Assembly (NCBI GenBank): GCA_025463365.1
Contig: JAOBWM010000019.1
Location: 1 to 39,217 of the forward strand
Direction of reading: 5' to 3'
Source: Acidimicrobiales bacterium
GTDB taxonomy: Bacteria > Actinomycetota > Acidimicrobiia > Acidimicrobiales > Iamiaceae
DNA: 39,217 nt
The notes under the pieces were generated by a model. That model worked only from the letters and a program-made list of their open reading frames with translations. It was not told where the DNA came from and searched no databases. The position numbers and the translations under genes were made by a program. Below are positions 9,955 to 29,131 of the stretch, piece by piece; the stretch's first letter is position 1; the number at the start of each line of letters is the position of its first letter.

Positions 9955-10174
9955 GGTGTGTCCTCCGTGCGGCGGGAGCGTGGGCGTTTCGCGACCGGCG
10001 CTACCCGCGCGGTCCAGAGCCAGGCTCACCCGGAAGAACGGTTCCCGTGGGCGACGTGGCAGCGGCGAACGAGAACGTCCCGAAGCACCCGCGGGGGTGA
10101 CGGCGCAAGCGGGCGGGACGGTCCGACGCGGGTAGGCCGCGACCGCCGAGCCGTTGCAGCTGCAGGAGCGACCG

Positions 10175-11299
10175 ATGAACCGACAGCACCCCATCGAGCG
10201 GACGGCGCACGGGTCAACGGCGGACGAGCGCGCGCCCCGGCCCCGGCGCGGGGTCGACGCTGACGCCGACATCGACGCCGACATGGACATCGACATCGAC
10301 ATCGACGACCGCGGCCGATCGGACCTGCAGCGCGCCGGCGAGGAGGGACGGGGCCGCCGCGCCGAGGCCCCGTCGGAGATCCCAGCTGCAGGCTGGAAGG
10401 ACGTCGCCCGCCGGGTGAAGGCCGAGGCAAGGGAGGACAACCTGCCGCTGCTGTCGGCAGGGGTGGCGTTCTATGCGCTGCTCTCGCTCTTCCCCGCGCT
10501 CGCCGCGGTGGTCTCGATCTACGGCATCGTGGCCGATCCGAGCGAGGTCTCGCGCCAGTTGCGATCACTGACCCGCGCCCTGCCGTCCGACGCCGCCCAC
10601 CTCATCGTCCAACAGGCCCGGGACGTCGCCGGCACGTCGAACGGCTCGCTCGGCATCACCGTGGTGGTCGGCATCGTGCTGGCCCTGTGGAGCGCGTCGA
10701 GCGGGATGAAGTGGCTGATGGCGGCGCTCAGCCTCGTGTACGACGAGCGCGAGGAGCGGAAGTTCGTGAAGCTCCGAGGGACAGCCGTGCTGCTCACCAT
10801 CGGCGCGGCCGTCGGCCTCGTGATCAGCATCGGCCTGATCTCCGCGATGCCGGCGATCTGCCGCCACCTCGGCTTGGGCGCCGCAGGGACGTGGGTCGCC
10901 GTCGTCCTGCGCTGGCCCGTCCTGGCCGCACTGGTGGTGGCCGGGCTTGCCGTGCTCTACCGCTACGGCCCGAACCGGGACCGGGCCCGGTGGCGCTGGG
11001 TCACCTGGGGCTCCGGCCTGGCCGCGGTGATCTGGCTCGTGGCCTCGGCCGCCTTCGCCGCCTACGCGGCCGTGGCCGGGAGGTTCGCCAAGACCTACGG
11101 CTCGGTGGCGGGCGTGGTGGTGCTGATGCTGTGGTTGTACCTGAGCATCCTCGCGATCCTGCTCGGCGGTGAGATCAACGCCGAGATGGAGCACCAGACG
11201 GCGGCCGACACCACCGTCGGCCCGTCCCGGCCGCTCGGCGCGCGAGGAGCGGAGATGGCCGACACCGTCGGCCCGACGGAGGCGGACGACCCACGTTGA
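10175..11299 (+). CDS. YihY/BrkB-family membrane protein with Asp-repeat N-terminus
   Basis: Integral membrane protein of the YihY/virulence-factor BrkB family (old name 'ribonuclease BN'), 374 aa. The family core starts near residue 72 (GWKDVARRVKAEAREDNLPL) and has about six membrane segments; FYALLSLFPALAAVVSIYG and the final SVAGVVVLMLWLYLS stretch ending in GGEINAE are hallmark segments. The N-terminal 70 residues are cytoplasmic and unusual, with residues 28-45 alternating Asp with Ala/Ile/Met. The start ATG at 10175 has GCAGGAGC 6 bases upstream; a TTG at 10154 would add seven residues. It is divergent from the DUF3618 operon (220 bp between starts), consistent with shared envelope function. 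Transport substrate unknown. Confidence 0.88.
   Translation: MNRQHPIERTAHGSTADERAPRPRRGVDADADIDADMDIDIDIDDRGRSDLQRAGEEGRGRRAEAPSEIPAAGWKDVARRVKAEAREDNLPLLSAGVAFYALLSLFPALAAVVSIYGIVADPSEVSRQLRSLTRALPSDAAHLIVQQARDVAGTSNGSLGITVVVGIVLALWSASSGMKWLMAALSLVYDEREERKFVKLRGTAVLLTIGAAVGLVISIGLISAMPAICRHLGLGAAGTWVAVVLRWPVLAALVVAGLAVLYRYGPNRDRARWRWVTWGSGLAAVIWLVASAAFAAYAAVAGRFAKTYGSVAGVVVLMLWLYLSILAILLGGEINAEMEHQTAADTTVGPSRPLGARGAEMADTVGPTEADDPR
10256..10309 (+). repeat. Asp-X dipeptide-encoding microrepeat in the YihY gene
   Basis: Eighteen codons (D28-D45) built from GAC alternating with GCC, GCT, ATC or ATG, ending in three GACATC units. It yields an 18-residue strip with Asp at every second position plus a terminal Asp pair. 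The unit length suggests slippage-driven growth and variation between strains. Confidence 0.8.
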
Positions 11300-11341
11300 A
11301 CGGCCGGCCTGGGGCCCGTCTGTCGCCCGGCATCGGGTGCA

Positions 11342-11374
11342 CCGCACCGGGTCATCGGCTTCTCCGCACCGGGT
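11342..11374. repeat. Two 11-bp direct repeats upstream of the SRPBCC gene
   Basis: CCGCACCGGGT occurs exactly at 11342-11352 and 11364-11374, spaced 22 bp start to start (two helical turns), in the 183-bp gap between the YihY and SRPBCC genes. The second copy runs into GGGTA, which resembles a sigma-B/F -10, but the -35 at the right distance (GGTCA) is poor. Possible activator sites. The rest of the gap shows only GC-rich sequence. Confidence 0.4.
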
Positions 11375-11482
11375 AGGGATGGCGGCCTCGCTCGGGCTCC
11401 CAGGCCCGACGCCCGTGCCCGGGAACCGCCGAGCGCCCCCGACAGCGCCACCCCACAACGCACCCCAGTCGAAGGAGCCCCG

Positions 11483-11938
11483 ATGGCGACCGTCAGCGAG
11501 CAACTCTCCCTTCCACGCTTCGCCGTGTTCGAGGCGCTGGCCACTCCAGAGACCTATCCGCACTGGCTGGTGGGGTGCCGGGCCATCCGGTCGGTCGACG
11601 CCGGCTGGCCCCGTGCCGGCACCCGCTTCCATCACCGCGTCGGCCTCGTCGGGCCGCTCACCGTGGCCGACGACACGAAGTCGCTGGAGAGCGATCCGCC
11701 CACCCGGCTGAGCCTGGAGGTCCGAGCGCGCCCGTTCGGCCGCGGCCGGGCGACCTTCCGTCTGTCGGACGCGCCCGACGGCGGGACGGTCGTGGAGCTC
11801 GACGAGGCCCCGATCGGGCTCATGGCCCCTGCCAAACCGCTCGTCGACCCGATCACCGCCCGCCGGAACCGACGCTCGCTCCGAAACCTGGCCGATTACC
11901 TCGAGCGTGGCCGATCCCACGCCGCTCCTCCCGCGTGA
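11483..11938 (+). CDS. SRPBCC (START/polyketide-cyclase-like) family protein
   Basis: Small protein of 151 aa with the SRPBCC helix-grip fold: the opening FAVFEALATPETYPHWLVG and the later RFHHRVG and ATFRLSDAPDGGTVVELDE strands match polyketide cyclase/dehydrase-like members, which bind hydrophobic ligands in a deep cavity. The start ATG at 11483 has GAAGGAGC about 6 bases upstream. The C-terminal helix is Arg-rich (ARRNRRSLRNLADYLERGR). It stands alone between the YihY and CsbD-like genes on the same strand. Ligand and role are unknown. Confidence 0.85.
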   Translation: MATVSEQLSLPRFAVFEALATPETYPHWLVGCRAIRSVDAGWPRAGTRFHHRVGLVGPLTVADDTKSLESDPPTRLSLEVRARPFGRGRATFRLSDAPDGGTVVELDEAPIGLMAPAKPLVDPITARRNRRSLRNLADYLERGRSHAAPPA

Positions 11939-12007
11939 CCCGACCCGCGGGCCCGTCCCCACCACGGCACCCGTTTGGTGGAACCTGCTCGCCGATTGCA
12001 CACGATC

Positions 12008-12033
12008 GGCTTGTCGGAGACGACAGCGGGGTA
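12008..12033 (+). promoter_or_regulatory. Sigma-B/F-like promoter of the CsbD-like gene
   Basis: GGCTT (12008-12012), 16 bases, then GGGTA (12029-12033). This matches the mycobacterial SigF pattern GGTTT-N15-17-GGGTA with one changed base in the -35. The start of transcription would fall near 12040, giving a leader of about 40 bases before the ATG at 12082. CsbD of Bacillus is a known sigma-B general-stress gene, which fits. This is a pattern match only. Confidence 0.45.
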
Positions 12034-12081
12034 GTCGGCGGTCCACACCGAGCCACCGAGCACCGACCCCGTGGAGGATCA

Positions 12082-12591
12082 ATGGCTGCCCCTGGTGAAG
12101 GAAACCCCCTCGTCGAGCGTATGAAGGGCACGGCCAAGCGACTGGCTGGCGCCGCCACCGGCGATGACGACCTGGTGCGGGAGGGCGAGGCCCACGACGA
12201 CAAGGCCCAGGCGTTGACCGACGCCCAGCGCCTCGAAGCGGAGGCCGCCAAGGACGAACGCGAGGCGGATCTCGCCGCGCGCGAGCAGGCGATCGTCGAG
12301 GAGCGCCAGCGCCTCGAGCTCGCCGAAGCAGAGGACCGTGCCCGCGCCGACATCGAAGCCAAGCAGGCTCGAGAGCAGGCAAAGGCCGAGACGGAGGCCG
12401 CCAGCACGCAGCAGGCCGCTGAGCGCCAGGCCGCGGCCGAGCAGGCCGCGGCGGCCCGGTCCACGACTGCTGCCGCGCGCGAACGCAACGACGAGACCAC
12501 GAAGGCAGCGGTGCTCGACGCCGCCGCCGACGATGCCAGAGGCGAAGCGAACCGCCTCGACGACCGAGCCAACGACCTCGAGGAGCAATGA
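12082..12591 (+). CDS. CsbD-like N-terminus with long coiled-coil tail
   Basis: Protein of 169 aa. The first 40 residues (NPLVERMKGTAKRLAGAATG, then DDDLVREGEAHDDKAQ) resemble the CsbD stress-protein motif (K-x-x-A-G-x-x-T-G-D-D-x-L-x-x-E-G). The rest is one long Ala/Glu/Arg/Gln helix, predicted coiled coil (LEAEAAKDEREADLAAREQA and onwards), with no Cys and no membrane segment. The start ATG at 12082 has GTGGAGGA about 4-5 bases upstream; the longer open frame is not supported. Its stop overlaps the next start (ATGA), so the two are translationally coupled. Behind a sigma-B/F-like promoter it is probably a general-stress protein; molecular role unknown. Confidence 0.78.
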   Translation: MAAPGEGNPLVERMKGTAKRLAGAATGDDDLVREGEAHDDKAQALTDAQRLEAEAAKDEREADLAAREQAIVEERQRLELAEAEDRARADIEAKQAREQAKAETEAASTQQAAERQAAAEQAAAARSTTAAARERNDETTKAAVLDAAADDARGEANRLDDRANDLEEQ

Positions 12592-13220
12592 CCACCACCA
12601 TGGCCATCCAGGACCTGCCCCGCAGCACCCTCCGATTGGGCGTGACCGCGACACGGTTGCCGCTCACCGCCGCCGAAGCGTTGCTCGGCCACCGCGGCGA
12701 CGCGGAGTGGCCACCCGCCCTGGCCTTCGACGCCGCCCAGGCCCACCTCAAGCTGGCCGTCGGCGGCGTCGTGCGGGACGACGTCCTCCAGGAGGAGGGC
12801 CGCCTGATCGCCGCCAAGGTCGACAAGTTGCGCCAGGCGGCGCGGTTGGAGGCGGCAGCCGAGCTGCGCACGGCGGCCGCCGACGACCAGCTGGCCGAAG
12901 CCCGCAGCAGTGCCGACCGCCGCGCCAGCCAGGCTCGTTCGACCGCTCGACGGCGCAAGCAGCAGGCCGATCGGGCACGGAACGATGCGGAGCGCAAGGC
13001 GGCCGCGTCCGCCGCACGCAAGGAACGGCTGGTCTCCGATGCCACCGACGCCGCGGCCACGGCGGTGGATCGCGCCGCGCGGGGTCGGCGCCGGACCGCG
13101 TTGGCGAAGGAACAGGCGGCGCTCGACAAGGAGAAGGCGGCCACCGCCCGCACGAACCAGGCGGCGGCGAGCGACGCCCGGATCGCCGCCAGCAAGCGAG
13201 CCCGCTCCACGAAGCGCTGA
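12588..13220 (+). CDS. Ala/Arg-rich coiled-coil protein, conserved hypothetical
   Basis: Protein of 210 aa, coupled to the CsbD-like gene by a 4-bp ATGA overlap. The first 65 residues look globular (LRLGVTATRLPLTAAEALLG, then WPPALAFDAAQAHLKLAVGG). This start recalls actinobacterial proteins often misnamed 'IF2 family translation initiation factor', a label given because of the low-complexity tail and not a function. From about residue 75 on it is an extended basic helix rich in Ala, Arg, Lys and Asp, ending KRARSTKR; the positive tail could bind nucleic acid or membrane phosphates. No catalytic motif is visible. Probably works with the partner coiled-coil protein in a stress response. Confidence 0.75.
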   Translation: MTTTMAIQDLPRSTLRLGVTATRLPLTAAEALLGHRGDAEWPPALAFDAAQAHLKLAVGGVVRDDVLQEEGRLIAAKVDKLRQAARLEAAAELRTAAADDQLAEARSSADRRASQARSTARRRKQQADRARNDAERKAAASAARKERLVSDATDAAATAVDRAARGRRRTALAKEQAALDKEKAATARTNQAAASDARIAASKRARSTKR

Positions 13221-13280
13221 CCCTCACGGCGCGGCCGTCGCCTCCTCCGATCCTCCGACGCCGACACCCGCGGGGTCAGG

Positions 13281-13871
13281 TCAGGCCCGTCCTCCCCCGG
13301 CCCGGCGCTTGGCGACCACGCGGGCCGCGCCCGGGCGCCGAGCGGCGATGGCCCGCTCGACCTCTCGGAGGATCCCGCGGGTGAGATCGGGCCCGAGGTG
13401 ATCCTGGAGTTGCTGAACACCCACGAAGCTCGAGAACGTGAGGCCGGCCACGATCCGGCGTTCCTCGGGATCGACGACGAGGGCCTTCAGGACCTCGTCG
13501 AGGAACGCGAGGCGGCGGTCGTCGATCCGGTCCTGTGCCCGGCGGACGGTGCCGGACGTGTTGGCCCACGCCCTCAGCGCGGCCTCGGCGGAGTGGGGCA
13601 CCTCGGTGGCGAGGGCGAGCAGCACCCCGAACCGCTCGGAAGCCTCGCCGTGGCTCCGGGTGAGGTCGATGATGCGCTGGGTCTCCTGGGCCTCCCACCG
13701 CTCCAGGAACTGTTCGAGGAACCCATCGAGGCTGCCGAAGTGGTGGTAGAAGGATCCGCTCGTCACGCCGAGCGTCCGCCCGAGGGCCGCGATGGTGACG
13801 CCCTTGAAGCCTTCCGACGCGAGGAGCTGCATCGTTGCTCGGTAGTACTCGTCCACGGTGACGGTGCTCAT
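13281..13871 (-). CDS. TetR/AcrR-family repressor
   Basis: TetR-type regulator of 196 aa. The N-terminal helix-turn-helix is at about 25-50 (VTIAALGRTLGVTSGSFYHH), including the YHHFGS/LxGFL family signature. The C-terminal ligand/dimer domain matches no specific group. The start ATG is at 13871; the ribosome site is weak (CTGGGGG). A perfect 20-bp palindrome lies 34 bases upstream (13905-13924). A close relative (15 of 20 positions) abuts the start of the EAL regulator gene upstream, so autoregulation plus control of that gene is likely. It lies 102 bp downstream of the EAL regulator on the same strand. A read-through transcript and a private promoter are both possible. The ligand is unknown. 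Confidence 0.92.
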   Translation of the reverse strand: MSTVTVDEYYRATMQLLASEGFKGVTIAALGRTLGVTSGSFYHHFGSLDGFLEQFLERWEAQETQRIIDLTRSHGEASERFGVLLALATEVPHSAEAALRAWANTSGTVRRAQDRIDDRRLAFLDEVLKALVVDPEERRIVAGLTFSSFVGVQQLQDHLGPDLTRGILREVERAIAARRPGAARVVAKRRAGGGRA

Positions 13872-13904: not shown

Positions 13905-13924
13905 ACCATGACATAGGTCATGGT
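13905..13924. promoter_or_regulatory. TetR-type palindromic operator in front of the TetR gene
   Basis: ACCATGAC-ATAG-GTCATGGT: perfect 8-bp arms around a 4-base centre, a size typical for TetR-family operators. On the minus strand it contains TACCAT, a possible -10 box, so binding would block transcription of the TetR gene starting at 13871. Confidence 0.7.
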
Positions 13925-13973: not shown

Positions 13974-15866
13974 CTACGTCGGGTCAACGTGTCCTGGCCG
14001 GCCCCATGCGAGCTCGGCAGGGGGACGGGGATGGGAGAAGAGGTACCCCTGCCCGAGCCCACAGCCGAGGCGCTGCAGATGGGTGCGCTGCTCCTCGAGT
14101 TCGATGCCCTCGGCCACGACCGTGATCTCGAGCTCGGCGGCCAGCGAGATCAAGGACGCCACGATGTGCGCGCCTCTGGTGCCCGAGTTCAGGGCATCGA
14201 CGAACGATCGGTCGATCTTCAGGGCACGCACGGGGAACCGGTGCAGGTAGGTCAGGCTGGCCCAACCGGTCCCGAAGTCGTCGATGGCGATCTGGGCGCC
14301 GATGTCGTTGAGGCTGGTGAGGGTGCGCACCACCTCATCGAGGTCCTGGACGAGCGAGGTCTCCGTGACCTCCAGCCAGAGTCGTCCTGCCGGCATGGCG
14401 GTCTCGCCGATGAGCCGTTCGACGTCTCCGATGAGGCAGCCGTCGATGAGCTGGCGCGGCGAGATGTTGACGGAGACGTCGAGGTCGAGGCCGTCGGCGC
14501 GCCAACGTTGCGCTTGCCGACACGCCTCCTCGAGGGCGTGCCGGCCGAGGCTGACGATGGTGCCCGACTGCTCGGCCGCCTCGATGAAGGCGTCCGGCGG
14601 CAGGAGCCCTCGACGGGGGTGCCTCCACCGGAGCAACGCCTCGACCCCCACCGGCCGTGCATCGTCGAGGCGGACGACCGGCTGGTAGTGCAGGACGAAC
14701 TCCCCGCGCTCGAGGCCCCGTTCGATCTCGCGGGCAAGGTCACCGTCGACCGCTTTGGCCGGTGCCGCCTGGCCGCCCTCGATCTGGTCGATCGGGCGGT
14801 CGCCCGAGATCAACGGCCACATCGTGACCTGGCTCGCGGGTTCGCCGTCCCACAGCACCGGCGTGGACGCCAGCTCCACGATGACGTCCTCGCCGTCGCT
14901 CCGACGAAGGGTGATGAGCTCGGGGCGGGGCCACCGTCCGCTTCTCGCACGCTTGTGGCGGGCCCGCGTCGCACCCACCGACTGGAGCGCGACGAACTCC
15001 ATCAGGTCGTGGCCCACGAGGTCGTGTGTGGCTGCGACGCCGAGGAGCGACAGCGTCGGGGCGCTCGCGAAGACGATCGTGCTCCCGACGATGACCGCGA
15101 TCGCCTCCCGCGACGCCGGCGCGTGCGAGCGGGCATGCAGACCGACCGGCGGCGCGGTCTCCGTTGGTGGCTCGAAGCGATAGCCGACGCCGCGCACGGT
15201 CTGGATCATCGTGGGGTGCGCAGGATCGGGCTCCAGCCGCAGCCGGAGGCGTCGGATGTGCTCGGTGACCGTTGCGTCGGTCTGCCACTCCACAGACGAC
15301 GACCACGCGGCGTGGAGCAGCTCGTCTCGGGTGAAGGTGCGCCGGGGGTGGCGGGCGAGCTGGACGAGGAGCTGGAACTCCTGGCGTGGCATGGAGACGT
15401 CGCGCCCCGCCACCCGCACCTGCCGGGCCGCGAGGTCGACCTCCAACGTCCCGAAGGCCAAGACTGCATCGGCGACCGCACCACCCGCGCGGCGCCGCGA
15501 GGCGGCGGCCACCCGAGCCGTGAGCTCGCGTTGCGTGGAGGACGTCAGGACGTAATCGTCCGCGCCGGCGAGGAACCCGGTCATCCGGTCTTCCTCGTCG
15601 GCGACGGCCGCCACCATGATGATGTGGACGTCGAGGCGTCGCCGGCGGAGCTCACGGATCATCTCGATGCCCGAGATCCCCCGCAACCTGCGGTCGATGA
15701 TCGCGATGTCGGCGGCCGATGCTCGGGCGAGTGCCTCGTGCGCGGAGCCGGTCGCGGAGGCGGCCAGGCCCTCGAGCTCGAGCGCGGCCCGGATGTCCTC
15801 ACGGAGGCCCGGATCATCGACCGCGAGCAGGATCGGCCGACGAGACTTCGAACTGCCCGCTTCCAT
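13974..15866 (-). CDS. Receiver-winged helix-PAS-EAL fusion: predicted DNA-binding c-di-GMP phosphodiesterase
   Basis: Protein of 630 aa that joins a response regulator to a c-di-GMP hydrolase. Order: receiver (about 10-125), OmpR-type winged helix (about 135-234, ending VRGVGYRFEPP), PAS-like region (about 252-345), EAL domain (about 375-620). The EAL domain looks active: E409-A-L, N467, E499-V-T-E502, D529-D530-F-G-T-G, K550, E586 and Q606-G-Y are all present. The receiver keeps D17/D18 and the phospho-acceptor D58, but the switch Thr/Ser is Ala (near 86) and the conserved Lys of the DDYxxKP motif is Thr (108). Phosphorylation-driven switching is therefore doubtful. No GGDEF domain is present. 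The ATG at 15866 abuts the operator at 15867-15886, leaving little room for a ribosome site, so a near-leaderless mRNA is likely. No partner kinase is adjacent. Confidence 0.92.
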   Translation of the reverse strand: MEAGSSKSRRPILLAVDDPGLREDIRAALELEGLAASATGSAHEALARASAADIAIIDRRLRGISGIEMIRELRRRRLDVHIIMVAAVADEEDRMTGFLAGADDYVLTSSTQRELTARVAAASRRRAGGAVADAVLAFGTLEVDLAARQVRVAGRDVSMPRQEFQLLVQLARHPRRTFTRDELLHAAWSSSVEWQTDATVTEHIRRLRLRLEPDPAHPTMIQTVRGVGYRFEPPTETAPPVGLHARSHAPASREAIAVIVGSTIVFASAPTLSLLGVAATHDLVGHDLMEFVALQSVGATRARHKRARSGRWPRPELITLRRSDGEDVIVELASTPVLWDGEPASQVTMWPLISGDRPIDQIEGGQAAPAKAVDGDLAREIERGLERGEFVLHYQPVVRLDDARPVGVEALLRWRHPRRGLLPPDAFIEAAEQSGTIVSLGRHALEEACRQAQRWRADGLDLDVSVNISPRQLIDGCLIGDVERLIGETAMPAGRLWLEVTETSLVQDLDEVVRTLTSLNDIGAQIAIDDFGTGWASLTYLHRFPVRALKIDRSFVDALNSGTRGAHIVASLISLAAELEITVVAEGIELEEQRTHLQRLGCGLGQGYLFSHPRPPAELAWGRPGHVDPT

Positions 15867-15886
15867 AACATAACCTATGCTATGTT
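15867..15886. promoter_or_regulatory. Second TetR-type operator, abutting the EAL regulator start codon
   Basis: Plus strand AACATAAC-CTAT-GCTATGTT: 7 of 8 arm positions are complementary around a 4-base centre. Read on the minus strand it agrees with the palindrome at 13905-13924 at 15 of 20 positions, including the central ATAG. It covers the -10 box and ends one base before the ATG of the EAL regulator gene. Confidence 0.62.
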
Positions 15887-15967: not shown

Positions 15968-16987
15968 TCACGCCGGCGCCGTTGCACGCGGACCTCGGCG
16001 TCGCCACGCGAGTGCGGCGATGGCGGCGGTGAGGAGCGCCGCCAGGAGACCGGCCCCCCCGAGCAAGAGGGGTCCCCCACCGCCCGTCGACACGGAGCTG
16101 GGTGGGCCCGACGACCCCTTCGCGGCCGGGAACGTCAGGGTGGTGGTGGCCTCCTCGGAGGTGAGGCCCGAGACCACGGTCAGGTGCGCGTCCCATGGGC
16201 CCCGCGGCAGCTCCGTGTCGAGGGTGACCGCCACGGATCCGGTGGCACCCGGCGCGAGGGTGGCGACGCCTCGGGCATGGAACGGCCCGGCGGTGAGCGA
16301 AGAGGGACCGTTGGTCAGATCGAGGGTGCCGGACAGATCGACGGCACGCTCGCCGGTGTTGTGCACCGTTGCCGTCACGACGGGGTTGCCGAGGTGGTCG
16401 CGACGCGCCGTCATCTGGTCGATGGAGAACGTCGTGCGAGGTGCTCCGCCGGGACCGACCGAGAGGTAGATGCGCACCCCGACCCGGCTCACGGTGGTCA
16501 CGCCCCTGCCGGTCGGGGGCGGGACCGAGCGCTCCGCGAGGGCGGCGGCGTAGCGCTCGCCGGTGCTGGCGTCGCTCGGGACTGCGATGGTGACCGTGAC
16601 CGGCACGGTCGCGCCCGAGGCCACCGTCGTCCGGTCGGTCGAGAAGGTGATCCAGCTCGTGAGCTCGTTGCCCTCGCGGCCGGGCAGGACGGCGAAGGCG
16701 TCGCCGCCGATGTCGGCCGCCGCCGCGTAGAACGAGAGATCGATGGGCCGATCGTCGCCGTTGGAGAACCCGATCCGTCGAGAGATGGTGGTGCCCGGGG
16801 CCACGTGGTCGATGACGTAGTCGTGCGCTCGCGGGTCATCGAGGTTGTCCGCCGGCCCCTCGAGCAGCCTGACCCCGAGACCGGGAACCGGCTCGGTGTC
16901 GGCCTGGGCCCACGCACCCGTCGCCGGCACGCAGAGCGCACCGGCGACGAGCAGCACCAGGACCAGGCGACGGAAGGTCGCCCTCAC
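15968..16987 (-). CDS. DUF916-like secreted protein with C-terminal membrane anchor
   Basis: Exported protein of 339 aa. A signal peptide covers about 1-27 (LVLVLLVAGALCVPATGAWA, then Q). The body is built of beta-sandwich repeats: ISRRIGFSNGDDRPIDLSFY and GATVPVTVTIAVPSDASTGE are typical of the DUF916 (WxL-associated, NEW3-like) domain, and a second sandwich follows (NPVVTATVHNTGERAVDLSG). A Ser/Gly-rich linker, one membrane helix at about 305-328 and an Arg-rich cytoplasmic end (RRRGPRATAPA) complete it, so it is anchored facing outward. The start GTG at 16987 lies 2 bp after the stop of the WxL-like gene, so they form one operon. In Firmicutes DUF916 proteins bind peptidoglycan and partner WxL proteins; the same role is inferred here. 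Confidence 0.78.
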   Translation of the reverse strand: MRATFRRLVLVLLVAGALCVPATGAWAQADTEPVPGLGVRLLEGPADNLDDPRAHDYVIDHVAPGTTISRRIGFSNGDDRPIDLSFYAAAADIGGDAFAVLPGREGNELTSWITFSTDRTTVASGATVPVTVTIAVPSDASTGERYAAALAERSVPPPTGRGVTTVSRVGVRIYLSVGPGGAPRTTFSIDQMTARRDHLGNPVVTATVHNTGERAVDLSGTLDLTNGPSSLTAGPFHARGVATLAPGATGSVAVTLDTELPRGPWDAHLTVVSGLTSEEATTTLTFPAAKGSSGPPSSVSTGGGGPLLLGGAGLLAALLTAAIAALAWRRRGPRATAPA

Positions 16988-17745: not shown

Positions 17746-20700
17746 GTGTTGGAGATCGCGGTGCTGGGACCGATCGAGGTCCGGCGCGACGGCCAACCCG
17801 TGGCGGTACCGCTCGGCAAGACGTCCGAGCTGCTGGTCCGGCTCGCGCTGGAGGCCGGCCACGTCGTGGCGACCGAGCGGCTCCTCGACGACCTGTGGGA
17901 CGGAGTCGACGCGGGGCGGAACACGCTCCAGTCCAAGGTGGCCAAGCTCCGACGTGCGCTCGGTGAGCCGAAGGTCGTCGTCAGTCGTGGTGGCGGCTAC
18001 CACCTCGACGTGGAGCGGACGATCGTCGATGCGCTCAGCGTGACCAGGCTCGTCACGGACACGAACCGGCTCTTCGCGATCGGTGACCACCGCGAGGCCG
18101 CTGCGCTCGCCGCGTCGGCGTTGGAGCTCTACCGGGGAGTCGTGCTCCCGGCGGCGGGCGACGGCGAGTGGGTCCTCCCGCACCGCGCCCGTCTCGACGA
18201 GGCCCGGATGCAACTGGTCGAGACCGGCATCGCGGCGCGAATCGAGCTCGGCGACACCGGCGACGTCATCGGCGAGCTCGGAGCCGCGGTGACCACGCAT
18301 CCGTTCCAGGAGGGCCTTTGGGAGCTGCTGATCACCGCCCAGTACCGGGCAGGGCGCCAGGCGGAGGCGCTTGCCGCCTACCAGCGGGTTCGCGTCCTGT
18401 TGGCGGACGAGCTCGGCCTCGAACCCGGGCCCAAGCTCAAGGAGCTCGAACGGCAGATCCTCTCCCAGGACCCAACGCTCGGCGCCCGGCTCCGCCCGTC
18501 ATCGCACGTCGAGCCCCAGGATCGGGTCGGGAACCTGCCCTCCATGACCGCCGATCTGGTGGGTCGCGACGCGGAGGTCCGGGCGGTCAGGGAGATGCTC
18601 GATGTGGCTCGGCTCGTCGAGATCATCGGCCCGGGTGGCATCGGCAAGACGGCCACGGCCATCACGGTCGGCCACCACCTGGGCGCGACGGGCGCAGCGG
18701 AAGGCGGCGGCACGTGGCTGGCGCGGCTCGAGACCGCAACGACGGGCGACGAGGTCGTCGATGCCGTCATCGCGGCGCTCGGCGTCACGGGCGAAGCGGC
18801 GCTGTTCGAACGGCTCCGGGGTGCCGCGGCCACGCTGATCTTCGACAACTGCGAACACGTCGTCGATGACGCGGCCGCGCTGGCCATCCGGCTGCTCGAC
18901 GCCGCCCCCGGACTCCGCATCCTCTGCACGAGCCAGGTTCCCCTCGGGGTCGATGGCGAGGCCTGCTTCGAGCTCCGGCCACTGAGCCTCGCCGAAGCCG
19001 TCGAGTTGTTCACGCGGAGGGCAGCTCGTCGTCTCACGCTGCGAGGAGATCCCGGCGAGGAGATCGACGAGCTCTGCCGATCGCTCGACGGGCTCCCCCT
19101 CGCCATCGAGCTCGCCGCGGCGCGAACCAGGACCCTGTCGGTCGCGGAGATCACCCGCCGGCTCGACGACCGCTTCGAGATCCTGCGTGACCCTGCAAGC
19201 CGTCGCTCCGAGCGCCGCCGCGCCCTCAAGTCCACGATCCGCTGGAGCTACGAGCTCCTCTTCCCCGACGACCAGCGCGGCCTGTGGGCGCTCGCCCCGT
19301 TCGCCGGCGGCGCGACGCTCCCTGCCGTCGAGTCCGTGCTCGAGTCGCTCGACGTCCCGGCAAGCGCGGCGATCGACGTCGTGGGTCGGTTGGCCAGCCG
19401 GTCGCTCCTGATCGTCGACGACGACCCGCTGGCAGGCTCGGCGACCCGGTACCGGCTGCTCGACAGCATCCGCGCCTTCGCACTCGACGCCGCGACGGGC
19501 GCTGGACTGGCGCCCCAGGCGCACGATGCCCACGCGGCGTGGTTCGCGACTGCGGCCGGCTCGTCCACCGACGGCGTTCGCAGCAGCCGGCAGGCCGAGC
19601 ACCTGGCGTTCGCTCGGGCTGAGCGCGCCAACCTCGACGTTGCCTTGACGTGGTCCGCCGTGCACGACCCGCGGCGCGCCCTCGCCATCGCCAACGGGTT
19701 CGGATGGGCATGGATCGTCCTGGGTGACAGTCGAGGCGCGCAGCGGATCCTCGCGGTGCTGGACGCAGTGGGGGGTGACGCCCCAGCTGGTGCACGGGCG
19801 ACGGCGATGCTCCTCGCTGGCTGGATCGAGGCGTCGACCGGTGATCTCGAGCTCGCCCGCGGTCACGTGCTCGGCGCATCCGCGCTGGCGAACGCAGCCG
19901 GAGACGTCGACCTCCAGGCACGCGCCGCGTACCACCTGGCCTATGTGGTGTCGCACCAGGGCAGGTGGGGGGAGGCGCTGGAGCTCACCGATCGCAGCCG
20001 AGCGCTCTACGAGGGGCTCGACCGGCCGTGGGACCAGGCCGCCAACGAACTGTTCGCCGCGAGAGCCGCGATCTCCGCGGGCGAGGGCCGCCGGGCCGCG
20101 GCCGCGTTGGATGACGCCAGCGGCTGGCTGCGGGCCGTCGACGACCCCTGGCTCCACGTTCGCCACGAGGCCGCGCTCGGAGAGCTCGCCCGCGTCGAGC
20201 ACCGGTTCGATGATGCGGTCCGTCACCTCGGACGCGCCGTCGACACCTCGAGACGACTCGGGTTCAAGCAGACCGAGGCGTACCAGACGTCCAGCCTTGG
20301 ACGGGCGCAAAGCCAGGCCGGCGATGATGCGGCCGCCGCCGCCACACTGCAGATCGCCATCGACCGGGCCGAGGCGACCGGCGACGTCCGCATGGCCGCC
20401 CTCGCCCGGGTCCACCTCGGGAGGGTCCTGCGAACGCTCGGTCGAGTCGTCGAGGCCCGTTCGGCCCTCGAGTCAGCCACCCGGTGGCACCGGGAGGCGG
20501 GCGGCGGGGAACAAGCGGCCCTCGGCGAGTGCCTGCTCGTGGCGATGGACGCGGCGGCGGGGCGTCCAGGCGCGGCCGAGCGCCTCGCCGCGGACCTCGA
20601 TCGGGCTCGGCTCGACGGTGATGCGGCCGTCGAGGTCTTCGCGCTCGATGGCCTGGCGCGTCTGGCCGCAGAAGCGGGCAACCTCTCCCAGGCCGAGGAG

Positions 20701-20796
20701 ATGCGCGACATCGCCGACCGGCGCATGGAGTCCGCATCGCACTTCATCACCGATCGCGATCGGGTCGACGCCCACGCGTTCACCGCTCGAGGCTGA
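17746..20796 (+). CDS. SARP/AfsR-type regulator: winged helix, BTAD, NB-ARC-like ATPase, TPR
   Basis: Large STAND-type regulator of 1016 aa. The N-terminal OmpR-like winged helix (about 1-95: LEIAVLGPIEVRRDG, ends RGGGYHLDV) is followed by the bacterial transcriptional activation domain (about 95-245: ALELYRGVVLP, GLWELLITAQYRAGRQAEAL). Next is a P-loop ATPase with Walker A GPGGIGKT at 295-302 and Walker B-like LIFDNCEHV near 365, and then many helical TPR-like repeats to the end. Such proteins activate secondary-metabolite or surface genes after ligand or partner sensing. The start is GTG at 17746 with only a weak ribosome site. It is divergent from the WxL-like/DUF916 operon, its most likely target. 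Its last 17 bases overlap the convergent DMT gene. Confidence 0.92.
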   Translation: MLEIAVLGPIEVRRDGQPVAVPLGKTSELLVRLALEAGHVVATERLLDDLWDGVDAGRNTLQSKVAKLRRALGEPKVVVSRGGGYHLDVERTIVDALSVTRLVTDTNRLFAIGDHREAAALAASALELYRGVVLPAAGDGEWVLPHRARLDEARMQLVETGIAARIELGDTGDVIGELGAAVTTHPFQEGLWELLITAQYRAGRQAEALAAYQRVRVLLADELGLEPGPKLKELERQILSQDPTLGARLRPSSHVEPQDRVGNLPSMTADLVGRDAEVRAVREMLDVARLVEIIGPGGIGKTATAITVGHHLGATGAAEGGGTWLARLETATTGDEVVDAVIAALGVTGEAALFERLRGAAATLIFDNCEHVVDDAAALAIRLLDAAPGLRILCTSQVPLGVDGEACFELRPLSLAEAVELFTRRAARRLTLRGDPGEEIDELCRSLDGLPLAIELAAARTRTLSVAEITRRLDDRFEILRDPASRRSERRRALKSTIRWSYELLFPDDQRGLWALAPFAGGATLPAVESVLESLDVPASAAIDVVGRLASRSLLIVDDDPLAGSATRYRLLDSIRAFALDAATGAGLAPQAHDAHAAWFATAAGSSTDGVRSSRQAEHLAFARAERANLDVALTWSAVHDPRRALAIANGFGWAWIVLGDSRGAQRILAVLDAVGGDAPAGARATAMLLAGWIEASTGDLELARGHVLGASALANAAGDVDLQARAAYHLAYVVSHQGRWGEALELTDRSRALYEGLDRPWDQAANELFAARAAISAGEGRRAAAALDDASGWLRAVDDPWLHVRHEAALGELARVEHRFDDAVRHLGRAVDTSRRLGFKQTEAYQTSSLGRAQSQAGDDAAAAATLQIAIDRAEATGDVRMAALARVHLGRVLRTLGRVVEARSALESATRWHREAGGGEQAALGECLLVAMDAAAGRPGAAERLAADLDRARLDGDAAVEVFALDGLARLAAEAGNLSQAEEMRDIADRRMESASHFITDRDRVDAHAFTARG

Positions 20797-22284: not shown

Positions 22285-24528
22285 ATGTTGAAGCGCATCA
22301 CCTCATGGTCCGTACAACATCGACGGGTCGTCGTTGCCGCGTGGCTCGTCCTCCTCGTCGGCATCAACGTGGCCGCCATGGCGTTCGGCGGCGAGAACCG
22401 CCAGGACTTCCTCGCCCCCGGCTCCGACTCGAAGGCCGCGGTCGACCTCCTCGACGAGCGGTTCCCCGCCCAGGCCGGTGACACGGTCACGATCGTGGTC
22501 CGCCATGACGCCGGTGTTGCGTCCGCCGAGGCGCTCGCTGTCGCCAAGCCCCTCGTCGCTCAGGTTCGGAAGCTCCCACATGTCGTCGGGGTGCTCGCCC
22601 CGTGGGATCGGGCAGGTGCAGCCCAGGTCTCGGCCGACGGCAAGACCGCGTACGCGACGGTGCAGCTCGATACCACCGCGGCGCGCTTCCCCACCGACGT
22701 CGCCAAGCAGATGATCGATCTCGCCTCGGACGCTCGGGCCGCCGGCACGCAGGTCGAGATGGCCGGTCAGGCCATCGACAGCGCACAGTCCACGAGCATC
22801 GGCGCCGAGGGTCCGGGGCTCGTGGTCGCGGCGATCGTCCTGCTCATCGTGTTCGGGTCGCTCGTCGCCATGGGCCTACCGCTCGCCACGGCCCTCTTCG
22901 GTGTCGGGGTCGGGCTCGCAACCGGACAGCTGCTCACGCTCATCCTCGACGTGCCCGATTGGGCGAGCTCCGTCGCCACGATGATCGGCCTCGGTGTCGG
23001 CATCGACTACGCGCTCCTGATCGTCACCCGCTATCGGACCGAGCTCGCGAACGGATCGTCCCCCCGGGTCGCCGTCGCCACCGCGATGGCGACAGCCGGA
23101 CGATCCGTCGTCTTCGCTGGAGCAACCGTCGTCATCTCCCTCCTCGGCATGCTCACGATGACCCAGCCGTACGTGCCGGGCGTCGCCTTCTCGGCGGTGG
23201 CCACCGTGCTCGCCGTGATGCTCGCCGCGCTCACCCTGCTCCCCGCGCTCCTCGGCTTCGCCGGTAGGAGCATCGACCGGCTGAGCCTGCCGTTCCGTCG
23301 ACCCACGAAGGCCACCGAACGGGGCTTCTGGTACCGGTGGAGCCGTGCCGTCCAGCGCCGGCCGATCGTCACCGGTCTCGCCGGGGCGATCGCGCTGACG
23401 GTGCTGATCCTGCCGGTGTTCAACATGCACCTCGGCTTCCCGGATGCCGGCAACGACCCCACGAGCCTCACCACTCGACGCGCCTACGACCTCATGACCG
23501 ACGGCTTCGGTGCCGGCTTCAACGGGACCTTCATCCTGGTGGCCGACCGTGGCGACCCCGCCGCGATCGCGGCGCTCGACCGACTCGAGCACACCCTGTC
23601 CACGACGCCGGGTGTCGCGGCGGTCTCCCCGCCCGTGGCGAGCCCGAGCGCCGACGCGGCGGTCATCGCACTCACGCCCGAAGCCAGCCCGCAGGACCGG
23701 ACCACCACGGAGCTCCTGTCGAGGTTGCGTCGTCACGTCGTGCCCGACGCGCTTGCCGACAGCGGCGTGCAGGTCCGCGTCGGTGGGATCACCGCGTCCT
23801 ACGTCGACCAGACCACCAGCATCTCGTCCCGGCTTCCGATCTTCATCGGCGCCGTGATCGCCCTCTCGTTCCTGCTCCTGCTGGCTGTGTTCCGGTCGGT
23901 CTTGGTGGCGCTCAAGGCCGCGATCTTGAACCTGTTGTCGATCGTCGCCGCCTACGGCGTGGTGGCCTATGCCGCCGAGGGTGGGTGGTTCGGCCACCTG
24001 TTCGGCATCACCACCCCCACGCCGATCCCCGCCTTCATCCCGATGATGATGTTCGCCATCCTCTTCGGCCTGTCGATGGACTACGAGGTGTTCCTCCTGT
24101 CCCGGGTCCGTGAGGAGTACGTCCGCACCCACGACAACGCCACCGCGGTGGCCGACGGGCTCGCGGCCACCGCCAAGGTGATCACGGCCGCCGCGCTGAT
24201 CATGACGGCCGTCTTCGGGGCGTTCATCCTCGATCCCCAGATCTTCCTGAAGATCATCGGGATCGGGATGGCGGCCGCCGTGATCATCGACGCCACGATC
24301 ATCCGCCTGGTCCTCGTCCCCTCCACCATGGAGCTCCTCGGCGACCGGAACTGGTGGATGCCCCGCTGGCTCGACCGGATCGTGCCGCACCTCGACATCG
24401 AAGGCGAGCACGCGGTCATCGACCTCGGCGACGAGGTCGGCGACGAGGTCGGTGACGGTGCTGGACCCGACGACGGTGCTGGACCCGAAGCCGAGACGGC
24501 GCCGCCCCGTGAGCCACTCACCGTCTGA
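22285..24528 (+). CDS. MMPL/RND-family transporter (first copy)
   Basis: Proton-driven MmpL-type transporter of 747 aa with two repeats of one helix, a large periplasmic loop and a five-helix bundle. Key proton-relay Asp-Tyr pairs are D241-Y242 (GVGIDYALLIV) and D599-Y600 (LSMDYEVFLLSR). The first helix is VVVAAWLVLLVGINVAAMAF. The DRNWWMPRWLDRIVPHLDIE end is typical of actinobacterial members that move lipids or hydrophobic compounds. The start ATG at 22285 has CAGGGAGC upstream. The C-terminal cytoplasmic tail carries short tandem repeats (24430-24489). A paralogue is at 29132-31639. The small membrane protein at 24577 follows by 48 bp and may be co-transcribed. Confidence 0.94.
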   Translation: MLKRITSWSVQHRRVVVAAWLVLLVGINVAAMAFGGENRQDFLAPGSDSKAAVDLLDERFPAQAGDTVTIVVRHDAGVASAEALAVAKPLVAQVRKLPHVVGVLAPWDRAGAAQVSADGKTAYATVQLDTTAARFPTDVAKQMIDLASDARAAGTQVEMAGQAIDSAQSTSIGAEGPGLVVAAIVLLIVFGSLVAMGLPLATALFGVGVGLATGQLLTLILDVPDWASSVATMIGLGVGIDYALLIVTRYRTELANGSSPRVAVATAMATAGRSVVFAGATVVISLLGMLTMTQPYVPGVAFSAVATVLAVMLAALTLLPALLGFAGRSIDRLSLPFRRPTKATERGFWYRWSRAVQRRPIVTGLAGAIALTVLILPVFNMHLGFPDAGNDPTSLTTRRAYDLMTDGFGAGFNGTFILVADRGDPAAIAALDRLEHTLSTTPGVAAVSPPVASPSADAAVIALTPEASPQDRTTTELLSRLRRHVVPDALADSGVQVRVGGITASYVDQTTSISSRLPIFIGAVIALSFLLLLAVFRSVLVALKAAILNLLSIVAAYGVVAYAAEGGWFGHLFGITTPTPIPAFIPMMMFAILFGLSMDYEVFLLSRVREEYVRTHDNATAVADGLAATAKVITAAALIMTAVFGAFILDPQIFLKIIGIGMAAAVIIDATIIRLVLVPSTMELLGDRNWWMPRWLDRIVPHLDIEGEHAVIDLGDEVGDEVGDGAGPDDGAGPEAETAPPREPLTV
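24430..24489 (+). repeat. Tandem repeats in the MMPL C-terminal tail
   Basis: A 12-bp unit, GACGAGGTCGGC/T, occurs twice (24430-24453), followed by an 18-bp unit, GACGGTGCTGGACCCGAC, twice with one mismatch (24454-24489). Both keep the frame and encode acidic DEVG and DGAGPD repeats. Likely a slippage-prone flexible tail. Confidence 0.8.
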
Positions 24529-27175: not shown

Positions 27176-27832
27176 TCAACGCTCGATGCGGCCGGTTTCA
27201 TGGGCCCACATGGCGATCTCGACCCGGTTCCGGGCGCCGAGCTTGTTCATCAGGCTCGCGAGGTGGGTCTTGACGGTGCTCAGGCTGATGTAGAGCTCGT
27301 CAGCGATCTCGGCGTTGGTTCGGCCCCGGGCGACGGTCACCAGGACCTCCTCCTCGCGGGCGGTGAGCGGTTCGATGGGTTGGGCCCGGGGCGTCCCGGC
27401 ACCCGGGTTTGAGAAGGTGGCGAGGAGCCTGACGGTCACGCTGGGGGCGATGAGCGCATCGCCGCGGGCGGCAGCCTCCACCGCCTGGACGAGGAGCTCG
27501 GGACCGGCGTCCTTGAGCAGGAACCCGCGGGCACCGGCCTTGAGGGCGCCGTGGACGTACTCGTCGAGATCGAAGGTGGTGATCACGACCACCGCCAGCG
27601 GATCGTCGATGCCGGGACCGGCGAGCTGCCGGGTGGCCTCGATGCCGTCGAGCTCCGGCATGCGGATGTCGAACAGGCACACGTCGGGTCGGAGCCGGCG
27701 GGCGAGCTCCACCGCCTCGCGCCCGTCGGCCGCCTCGCCGACGACCTCGATGTCGCGTTGGGCGTTGAGGATCATCCTGAGCCCGGTCCGGATGATCTCC
27801 TGATCGTCGGCCAGGACGACTCGAATGGTCAT
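27176..27832 (-). CDS. NarL/LuxR-family response regulator
   Basis: Two-component response regulator of 218 aa. The receiver has acidic D9/D10, the phospho-acceptor D55 (LFDIRMPELDG), the switch Thr in VVVITTF and the Lys in FLLKD, all intact. The C-terminal LuxR helix-turn-helix is LTAREEEVLVTVARGRTNAE followed by IADELYISLSTVKTHLASLM. Start ATG at 27832, overlapping the kinase stop (ATGA), so the kinase-regulator pair is translationally coupled. The long frame upstream to 28018 is not coding. The likely target is the divergent MMPL transporter operon at 29132. Confidence 0.95.
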   Translation of the reverse strand: MTIRVVLADDQEIIRTGLRMILNAQRDIEVVGEAADGREAVELARRLRPDVCLFDIRMPELDGIEATRQLAGPGIDDPLAVVVITTFDLDEYVHGALKAGARGFLLKDAGPELLVQAVEAAARGDALIAPSVTVRLLATFSNPGAGTPRAQPIEPLTAREEEVLVTVARGRTNAEIADELYISLSTVKTHLASLMNKLGARNRVEIAMWAHETGRIER

Positions 27833-29007
27833 GATCCGCCACTGCCTCTGGGAAGGACGGCATGCACGGTCCATCCTCGGTTCCGGTTCGGTCCGGCCTC
27901 GAGGGTGCCGCCGAGCAGCTTCGCTCGCTCTGCCATGCCGATCAGCCCGAAGCCCGTCGACGAGCGCGGGCCTCCGGCGCCGGCGTCGCCGTCGTCGCCG
28001 ACGGTGAGCTGCACGCAATCTGTCTCACCACGGACCGAGACCCTGATGCGGGTGGCGTGGCGTGCGTGGCGGACCGCGTTGGTGATCGACTCCTGGGCGA
28101 GCCGGTACAGGGCGGCATCGACCGAGGGACGAAGCCCGTCGAGGTCGCCCGAGAGCTCCACGTCGACGTGTGGCCGGTCCCCACGGCTGTTCGTGAGCCG
28201 CTCGATGTCCGCGACGCCTCGCTGCGGGGCGAGGTCGGCCTCGGTGCCCTGGCGGAGGGCGCCGACCATGGCGCGCATCTCTGCCAGCGTTCGAGAGGCC
28301 TCCTCCTCGATGACGACGAGGGCGTCCAGGGCGGCGACAGGATCGGCCGAGGCGACGACGCGTCCGGCTTGCGCACGGATGGCGATGGCCGAGACGTGGT
28401 GGGCGACCGTGTCGTGGAGCTCGCGTGCCAGCTGCTCGCGCTCGAGCAGCTTGACCTGGTCCATGCCGCGGGCACGCGCCTTGTCCTGGTAGCGGACGGA
28501 CGCGCCGAGCGCCGCCGCGACCAGCTCGACCAGACCACCGACGACGATGTTGCTGGCCGGGATGGCGTCGGCCGACGCGTGGATCTGCTGGTCGAAGCCG
28601 CTGAGCAGCAATGGGATCGACATCACGGCCAGCCCGATCACGGCCTGACGACCGGAGCCCCATCGGAACAGCGCGTAGGGCAACAACAGCACGAAGATGT
28701 TCGTGCTCAGGCCTCGCCAGTCGACGCCGACGGCGAGCGACGCAGCGTCGACGATCGTGAGCATGCCGAAGGCGACCACGACGGCTGCGAGCGGGTGCGT
28801 CCGCCGCCAGAGCAGCGTGGGCAACAGCGCCAGGGCGACGACGACGGAGAAGCCACGCCAGACCAGGTCCTCGTTGAGCACGCCTTCGAGCACCGCCACC
28901 GGCACGAGGCCGAAGACGAGCACCCAGTCCCGCCACACGCGGCGCGGCGGGTCCGCTATCCGGGGTTCGGCCCAGAACGATCGAGCCGAGTCTCGGAGCA
29001 CGACCAC
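27829..29007 (-). CDS. NarL-partner sensor histidine kinase (HisKA_3 type)
   Basis: Sensor kinase of about 392 aa. The N-terminal membrane part has about four to six helices (DWVLVFGLVPVAVLEGVL, LAAVVVAFGMLTIVDAASLA, IFVLLLPYALF, AVIGLAVMSIPLLLSG) and little outside the membrane. It is followed by a HisKA_3 dimerisation domain with the H-box (LARELHDTVAHHVSAIAIRA) and an HATPase domain (RLAQESITNAVRHA, STGFGLIGMAERAKLLGGTL). The start is uncertain: GTG at 29007, 29001 or 29058 are all in frame and none has a clear ribosome site; a TACTGT -10 box just upstream would allow a leaderless start. It is coupled to the response regulator and divergent from the MMPL transporter, as in the cell-envelope stress systems of many actinobacteria. 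Confidence 0.88.
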   Translation of the reverse strand: MVVLRDSARSFWAEPRIADPPRRVWRDWVLVFGLVPVAVLEGVLNEDLVWRGFSVVVALALLPTLLWRRTHPLAAVVVAFGMLTIVDAASLAVGVDWRGLSTNIFVLLLPYALFRWGSGRQAVIGLAVMSIPLLLSGFDQQIHASADAIPASNIVVGGLVELVAAALGASVRYQDKARARGMDQVKLLEREQLARELHDTVAHHVSAIAIRAQAGRVVASADPVAALDALVVIEEEASRTLAEMRAMVGALRQGTEADLAPQRGVADIERLTNSRGDRPHVDVELSGDLDGLRPSVDAALYRLAQESITNAVRHARHATRIRVSVRGETDCVQLTVGDDGDAGAGGPRSSTGFGLIGMAERAKLLGGTLEAGPNRNRGWTVHAVLPRGSGGS

Positions 29008-29131
29008 ACAGTAAGGAGTCGGAGCCGGCCGCGGATCGGCCGAAAGGACGAGTCGCACACCATTCCAACGGTCGGTCGCGAACGGCCGGAGTCCCGATGT
29101 GCCCGCCGGCCCATGCCGGGACGATGGCTCC

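Follow-up and report, generated by a model that had tools for sequence, protein, structure and literature searches.

The window, by which we mean the whole 39,217-nt stretch of DNA that was analysed, carries on its minus strand a gene joining a receiver domain (REC), an OmpR/PhoB-type winged helix (wHTH), a PAS-like segment and an EAL phosphodiesterase domain in one chain. A gene for a TetR-family regulator follows on the same strand, and two palindromes lie at the starts of the two genes:

13974..15866, minus strand: REC-wHTH-PAS-EAL gene, 630 aa plus stop, ATG at 15866; Pfam, NCBIfam and GC3 coding bias
15510..15833, minus strand: receiver domain, residues 12–119; Pfam Response_reg 6.1e-16; degenerate pocket (V16, A86, T108; D17 and D58 kept)
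15174..15407, minus strand: OmpR/PhoB-type winged helix, residues 154–231; Pfam Trans_reg_C 4.2e-21; PDB relatives MtrA and PhoB
14841..15098, minus strand: PAS-like segment, residues 257–342; PAS_9 2.2e-4, below gathering; folded alpha/beta block in the model
14028..14732, minus strand: EAL phosphodiesterase domain, residues 379–613; Pfam 1.7e-71; full catalytic set
13281..13871, minus strand: TetR-family regulator gene, 196 aa; Pfam TetR_N 3.7e-10; just downstream of the EAL gene
15867..15886, no strand assigned: imperfect palindrome AACATAACCTATGCTATGTT, 8 of 10 pairs; abuts the EAL gene's ATG; predicted TetR operator
13905..13924, no strand assigned: palindrome ACCATGACATAGGTCATGGT, 9 of 10 pairs; between the EAL stop and the TetR start; predicted TetR operator

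Receiver, winged helix and EAL domain in one chain

The position and length that an earlier note had given for the gene (13974–15866, 630 aa plus stop) hold, and we add the minus strand, which it had left unstated. Upstream, the frame stays open to 16196, and the Pfam receiver begins at residue 12 of the 630-residue form. The architecture claimed in the same note is borne out by Pfam matches above gathering score to Response_reg, Trans_reg_C and EAL, and by a PAS-like segment whose PAS_9 match falls below gathering (21.9 bits against 27). In NCBIfam, residues 11–232 match PhoB end to end (7.8e-47) and residues 376–621 match phosphodiesterases, none of those listed exceeding its curated cut-off. 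Chimeric assembly as the source of the fusion is ruled out by the presence of the same architecture in five other genomes. Just upstream on the same strand, 15971–16987 encodes a 339-aa protein that belongs to no Pfam family and has, by eye, a signal-like N-terminus and a C-terminal membrane stretch.

An AlphaFold2 model of the protein, built on a 23-row alignment, has a mean pLDDT of 84.3 and shows folded blocks at about 12–127, 135–231, 255–351 and 375–606, joined by linkers of low pLDDT at 237–251 and 353–372; its pTM is 0.49, so the arrangement of the four blocks is not predicted. The winged helix, whose failure to match Trans_reg_C the earlier note had named as one outcome fatal to its claim, does match it. 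Its best PDB relatives are MtrA (1.9e-21) and PhoB (1e-16), the alignment with PhoB running through recognition helix and wing, and residues 9–236 as a whole match MtrA at 1.9e-38 in a PDB sequence comparison; DNA binding by this domain is predicted from that homology. In sequence, the EAL block is nearest to MorA (7e-64), in structure to BifA (8arv_B, Z 36.3, rmsd 1.7, 251 aligned), and it can also be aligned with the PdeL structure 7pk5 (1.7e-32). The structure-comparison rows from VIA-align are mostly EAL-driven and hence give no separate reading on the PAS fold. All residues of the EAL catalytic set, which we take to be E409, N467, E499, D529, D530, K550, E586 and Q606, are present, as the earlier note had stated, and are invariant in 8 of 8 aligned family members. 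By this full set, the domain would be a c-di-GMP phosphodiesterase, with the activity itself predicted.

A receiver followed by Trans_reg_C is also found in MtrA, PhoB and RegX3, with the first of which residues 9–236 align; those three have canonical receivers and are not known to carry PAS or EAL. The EAL fold and active site are held in common with RocR and PvrR (REC-EAL) and with the EAL domains of BifA and MorA, but the chains of these four are not known to have a winged helix. By the accounts available to us, two proteins resemble the window protein in joining phosphodiesterase and DNA-binding domains. In PdeL (YahA) of E. coli, a single polypeptide carries an active EAL domain and a DNA-binding domain; the protein breaks down c-di-GMP and also binds DNA, with promoter control that responds to c-di-GMP (PMC5052742). 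It switches on its own gene when c-di-GMP is low, and its EAL domain dimerises on c-di-GMP (PMC5052742; also PMC12564702). A 2016 review lists two trigger phosphodiesterases and has PdeL binding DNA through a LuxR-like HTH (PMC5052742); this HTH is N-terminal to the EAL domain, whereas the window protein has an OmpR/PhoB winged helix between its receiver and its PAS-like and EAL regions. VieA of Vibrio cholerae likewise has receiver, phosphodiesterase and HTH in a single chain (PMC4352251), with phosphodiesterase activity reported to be independent of phosphorylation (PMC4352251, PMC5498567). Its order is REC-PDE-HTH, with the HTH C-terminal, unlike the REC-wHTH-PAS-EAL order and degenerate receiver described here. 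By architecture, the window protein falls outside the PdeL orthologue group, having no LuxR-like HTH, and outside the VieA group by its domain order; there is no GerE match among its Pfam matches.

A receiver, a DNA-binding domain and a phosphodiesterase in one chain are already known from VieA, and the phrase 'undescribed system' in the earlier note is too strong in view of VieA and PdeL; the OmpR/PhoB winged helix would make this protein a new version of a trigger phosphodiesterase. The other outcome that the note had named as fatal, an architecture widespread and already characterised, did not come about: the fusion is rare (see below), and the open-licence literature yielded no characterised Trans_reg_C+EAL protein, which is weak evidence of absence. 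The accessible text of PMC8612252 places Trans_reg_C- and EAL-type domains in gene neighbourhoods, with no fusion, and that of PMC5845226 does not mention OmpR. Very few trigger phosphodiesterases acting on DNA have been described, and a lineage in which a complete EAL domain is combined with an OmpR/PhoB winged helix, a DNA-binding output that is very common in bacteria, would show that the same principle emerged on a different scaffold, far from those described.

A small lineage and its receivers

The REC-wHTH-PAS-EAL fusion is genuine, no artefact, and is rare among the genomes searched, as the earlier note had supposed. A winged helix and an EAL domain in one frame were found, by BLAST of open reading frames, in 8 proteins from 6 of 298 genomes of the order (G000, G036, G066, G068, G147 and G186, with two copies each in G068 and G147). 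The genome search puts G186, whose contig is that of locus L007, in the window's order. At 1e-66, 25 of the 298 genomes matched, and the window's own family had a match at E ≤ 1e-90 in 1 of 24 genomes, namely the source genome. With the family alignment as query, no further full-length member was found in the samples of the class (395 genomes) or the phylum (396); non-members there were judged by query coverage, and loci in the order by BLAST for REC and wHTH. For families f53, f22, f14 and f46, the positives (1 of 37, 1 of 150, 1 of 2 and 1 of 1 genomes, respectively) were already-known genomes only. Candidates were scored as the best 4 per genome in the order, the best 2 in the class and phylum and the best 6 for f22, a procedure that could miss Trans_reg_C+EAL fusions of independent origin whose EAL domain is more distant. 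Plasmids gave no match at 1e-60; on viral contigs, 78 loci matched, only from residue 318 onward. Among the genomes sampled in the order, the lineage is small and patchy.

Pfam finds Trans_reg_C and EAL in 7 of 7 relatives, and the layouts at the loci are as follows:

L002: REC-wHTH-EAL
L112, L113 and L114: REC-wHTH-PAS-PAS-EAL
L004 and L007: REC-wHTH-PAS-PAS-EAL with a C-terminal GGDEF domain
L111: wHTH-EAL only, 376 aa; Trans_reg_C ends at 108, EAL starts at 123
L005 and L006: REC-PAS-EAL, without wHTH
L003: incomplete, the contig end cutting the locus

The winged helices of all 7 relatives, including the receiver-less L111, are 41–56% identical to that of the window protein. In L007, PAS_9 reaches 57.3 bits for the whole protein over two stretches (cut-off 27), the better of which, 241–331, aligns with the PAS-like segment of the window protein. 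A conserved region with no Pfam match at 0.01 follows the EAL domain in L004:2088-5180, L007:5995-9030 and L114:8453-11173; in L004 and L007 it is followed by a GGDEF domain with a GGEEF/GGDEF motif, whereas in L114 it has none. A chain holding REC, DNA-binding, PAS, EAL and GGDEF domains is itself unusual. At L111, about 210 nt separate the wHTH-EAL gene from its upstream neighbour; a KaiC-family ATPase gene (L111:5230-7152) also lies upstream, with a PAS-GGDEF-EAL gene in between.

In a tree of 75 EAL domains (74 loci and the window; bootstrap not settled), a clade of 12 rows with support 100/99 unites all 8 wHTH members with L005, L006, L003 and one row identical to L005. Inside it the wHTH members need one change, at weak support (70/49), and the row nearest to the window is L002 (98/90). 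A single origin of the wHTH-EAL fusion is plausible on these sequences.

The earlier note had regarded the receiver as an ordinary one, but its phosphorylation pocket is damaged. Three of the five pocket positions are altered: V16 stands for the first acid, A86 for the Thr/Ser and T108 for the Lys, with D17 and the phospho-acceptor D58 retained. The protein therefore lacks the complete phosphorylation pocket of two acids, Asp, Thr/Ser and Lys. Among other receiver stretches of the same genome, 19 of 20 are intact (18 of 19 in REC-wHTH proteins), the comparison comprising all 19 other REC-wHTH matches and one REC-only match and leaving out nine weaker REC-only matches. The altered one, L266 (G000:C192:29250-30100), is a REC-wHTH protein whose receiver lacks the acids, Asp, Thr and Lys. 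Conserved Lys and Thr/Ser are considered to be needed for phospho-signalling. The window protein is thus of OmpR/PhoB type by homology and is not, on its pocket residues, a canonical phospho-regulator, and we infer that phospho-control has been lost. Because key phosphate-sensing residues are gone, control probably comes from c-di-GMP itself or from the adjoining repressor gene and not from a sensor kinase; weak or unusual phosphorylation may still occur, given D58 and D17. Damaged phospho-pockets are described in other OmpR/PhoB-type receivers, those of RitR and ChxR, which lack the Asp (PMC4395418), whereas the window receiver keeps Asp58 and loses Thr, Lys and the first acid. In that survey, which counts loss of Asp only, Asp-less receivers make up 2% of REC-OmpR/PhoB architectures (PMC4395418). 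Among the 7 members that have a receiver, Asp is missing only in L114.

The state of the receiver may follow the presence of a kinase next door. L004 and L007 lie directly behind hybrid histidine kinases, and L002 overlaps a downstream gene carrying HATPase_c and a receiver domain; in these members, counted as those beside a hybrid histidine kinase, the receiver is intact in 3 of 3. It is altered or absent in 5 of 5 members for which the scan of adjacent genes showed no kinase (the window protein and L111–L114), the scans of the relatives being partial and short of the locus ends, with L003 and L005 outside the count. Calculated by hand, the contrast between 3 of 3 and 0 of 5 corresponds to p = 1/56, a value that presupposes independence among what are related proteins; the tree gives 2 to 3 independent pairs, all concordant, for which a sign test gives p 0.5. 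L006, a REC-PAS-EAL protein without winged helix, has an intact receiver with no kinase in the three neighbouring genes scanned, which counts against a general rule. The association is suggestive and statistically not secure. The series from an intact receiver with a kinase, through a damaged one without, to none at all makes a change of two-component input testable.

The TetR-family gene and its predicted operators

The closest homologue of the TetR-family regulator in the 298 genomes, in G060, is 34–36% identical. TAACCTATGTTA lies there at −49 relative to the aligned start, and TGACCTATGTCA lies at an equal distance ahead of the TetR gene in the window. The motif TRACMTAKGTYA fits both TetR promoters exactly; without mismatch, either genome contains it a single time, in both cases at the TetR gene. 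With at most one mismatch, it is found in the window at the TetR promoter and at the EAL gene's start only, against 0.06 expected. Across the TetR homologues (19 of 23 matches examined), it is present without mismatch in one, that of G060. A 20-base pattern from both window sites has no third match in the window even when 3 mismatches are allowed (0 in 100 shuffles), and a 16-base core is exact in the genome at the two window sites only, with four more places at one mismatch; both patterns were drawn from the two sites, so these matches are partly circular. At the G060 locus (G060:C79, L271), the TetR homologue has P450 and acyl-CoA dehydrogenase genes as neighbours, which leads us to speculate that the TetR ligand may be lipid-like.

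Other comparisons weigh against the predicted operators. Taken alone, the palindrome at the EAL start does not stand out, since shuffling the 200 nt upstream does as well in 29 of 100 cases, and the two intergenic stretches, alike at 15 of 20 bases, are equalled in this by 13 of 150 shuffles. In the upstream 200 nt of the relatives, the motif never occurs at fewer than 2 mismatches (7 of 7), and none of their best upstream palindromes stands out from shuffles. The operator sites are absent among the 25 of 34 pairs listed by an inverted-repeat search, and a simple promoter and terminator scan of the window found none. By eye, TAGGTT lies within the site just before the EAL gene's ATG and could be the −10 box of a leaderless transcript. 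From the motif, control of the EAL gene by the TetR-family regulator is predicted and plausible.

Proposed coupling of c-di-GMP to DNA binding

From the domains, the catalytic residues, the damaged receiver, the family and the motif common to both promoters, all read directly from the DNA, we propose that the protein is a trigger-type, DNA-binding c-di-GMP phosphodiesterase built on an OmpR/PhoB winged helix, with a structural receiver and an amount set by the TetR-family regulator, a proposal that we regard as evenly poised. Most likely, the winged helix would occupy a target promoter in dimeric form, while c-di-GMP would be bound and hydrolysed by the C-terminal EAL domain. Whether the EAL dimer is substrate-bound or empty, perhaps together with a PAS ligand, would govern the presentation of the winged helices to DNA, such that promoter output would report c-di-GMP while the protein lowers its level. 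The receiver would be kept as a structural or dimerisation module and would no longer be a normal phospho-switch. The amount of protein would be set mainly by transcription, with the TetR-family regulator predicted to act on its own promoter and on the EAL gene's start. Coupling of c-di-GMP to DNA binding in the wHTH-EAL lineage would follow by analogy with PdeL, which comes nearest to a working model.

How the lineage came to this state can be read, tentatively and as one possible history, as a handover of input from phosphate to c-di-GMP. The EAL domain, by binding its own signal and degrading it, would have become the sensor that sets winged-helix dimerisation on DNA, and the receiver would have decayed stepwise where no kinase is adjacent, down to the 376 residues of L111; TetR control would have been added in the window copy.

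The protein could instead have two independent outputs on an ordinary response-regulator scaffold, the state of the receiver or dimer governing the promoter and c-di-GMP hydrolysis proceeding uncoupled from it. VieA, with its phosphorylation-independent phosphodiesterase activity, is a precedent, the linkers look flexible (low pLDDT at 237–251 and 353–372), and three relatives combine an intact receiver with a kinase neighbour. This arrangement is conceivable, though we incline to doubt it: the window receiver has lost 3 of 5 pocket residues, and L111, which has no receiver, keeps the winged helix and EAL domain on a short linker (108 to 123), which favours direct coupling between the two.

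The same pocket bears on whether a distant kinase still operates the receiver as a fully or partly functional phospho-switch, the altered residues merely shifting the kinetics. D17 and D58 are present and the window encodes two histidine kinases (14–1198 and 27829–29553), but the conserved Lys and Thr/Ser are lost and neither kinase adjoins the REC-wHTH-PAS-EAL gene, the second standing beside a LuxR-type regulator of its own; we consider this unlikely. Least probable is a decaying, vestigial fusion in which the winged helix has lost DNA binding and only the phosphodiesterase function is left, a reading that fits the degenerating receiver and the rare, patchy lineage but not a winged helix that scores 4.2e-21, aligns with PhoB through recognition helix and wing and is kept in 7 of 7 relatives at 41–56% identity, even where the receiver is gone.

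Several other features of the window are of note in their own right. The HisKA_3 histidine kinase at 27829–29553 (minus strand) adjoins a LuxR-type response regulator at 27176–28018 (minus strand), an ordinary two-component pair. On the plus strand, 17746–20796 encodes a 1016-aa SARP-like regulator with Trans_reg_C, BTAD and TPR repeats, and two genes for MMPL-family transporters lie at 22285–24528 and 29099–31639. A 951-aa open frame without Pfam match at 10565–13420 (minus strand) runs over a BrkB-like gene (10154–11299) and a polyketide cyclase-like gene (11483–11938); it is probably an antisense frame of high-GC DNA, and the genes that it overlaps are likely to be the real ones.
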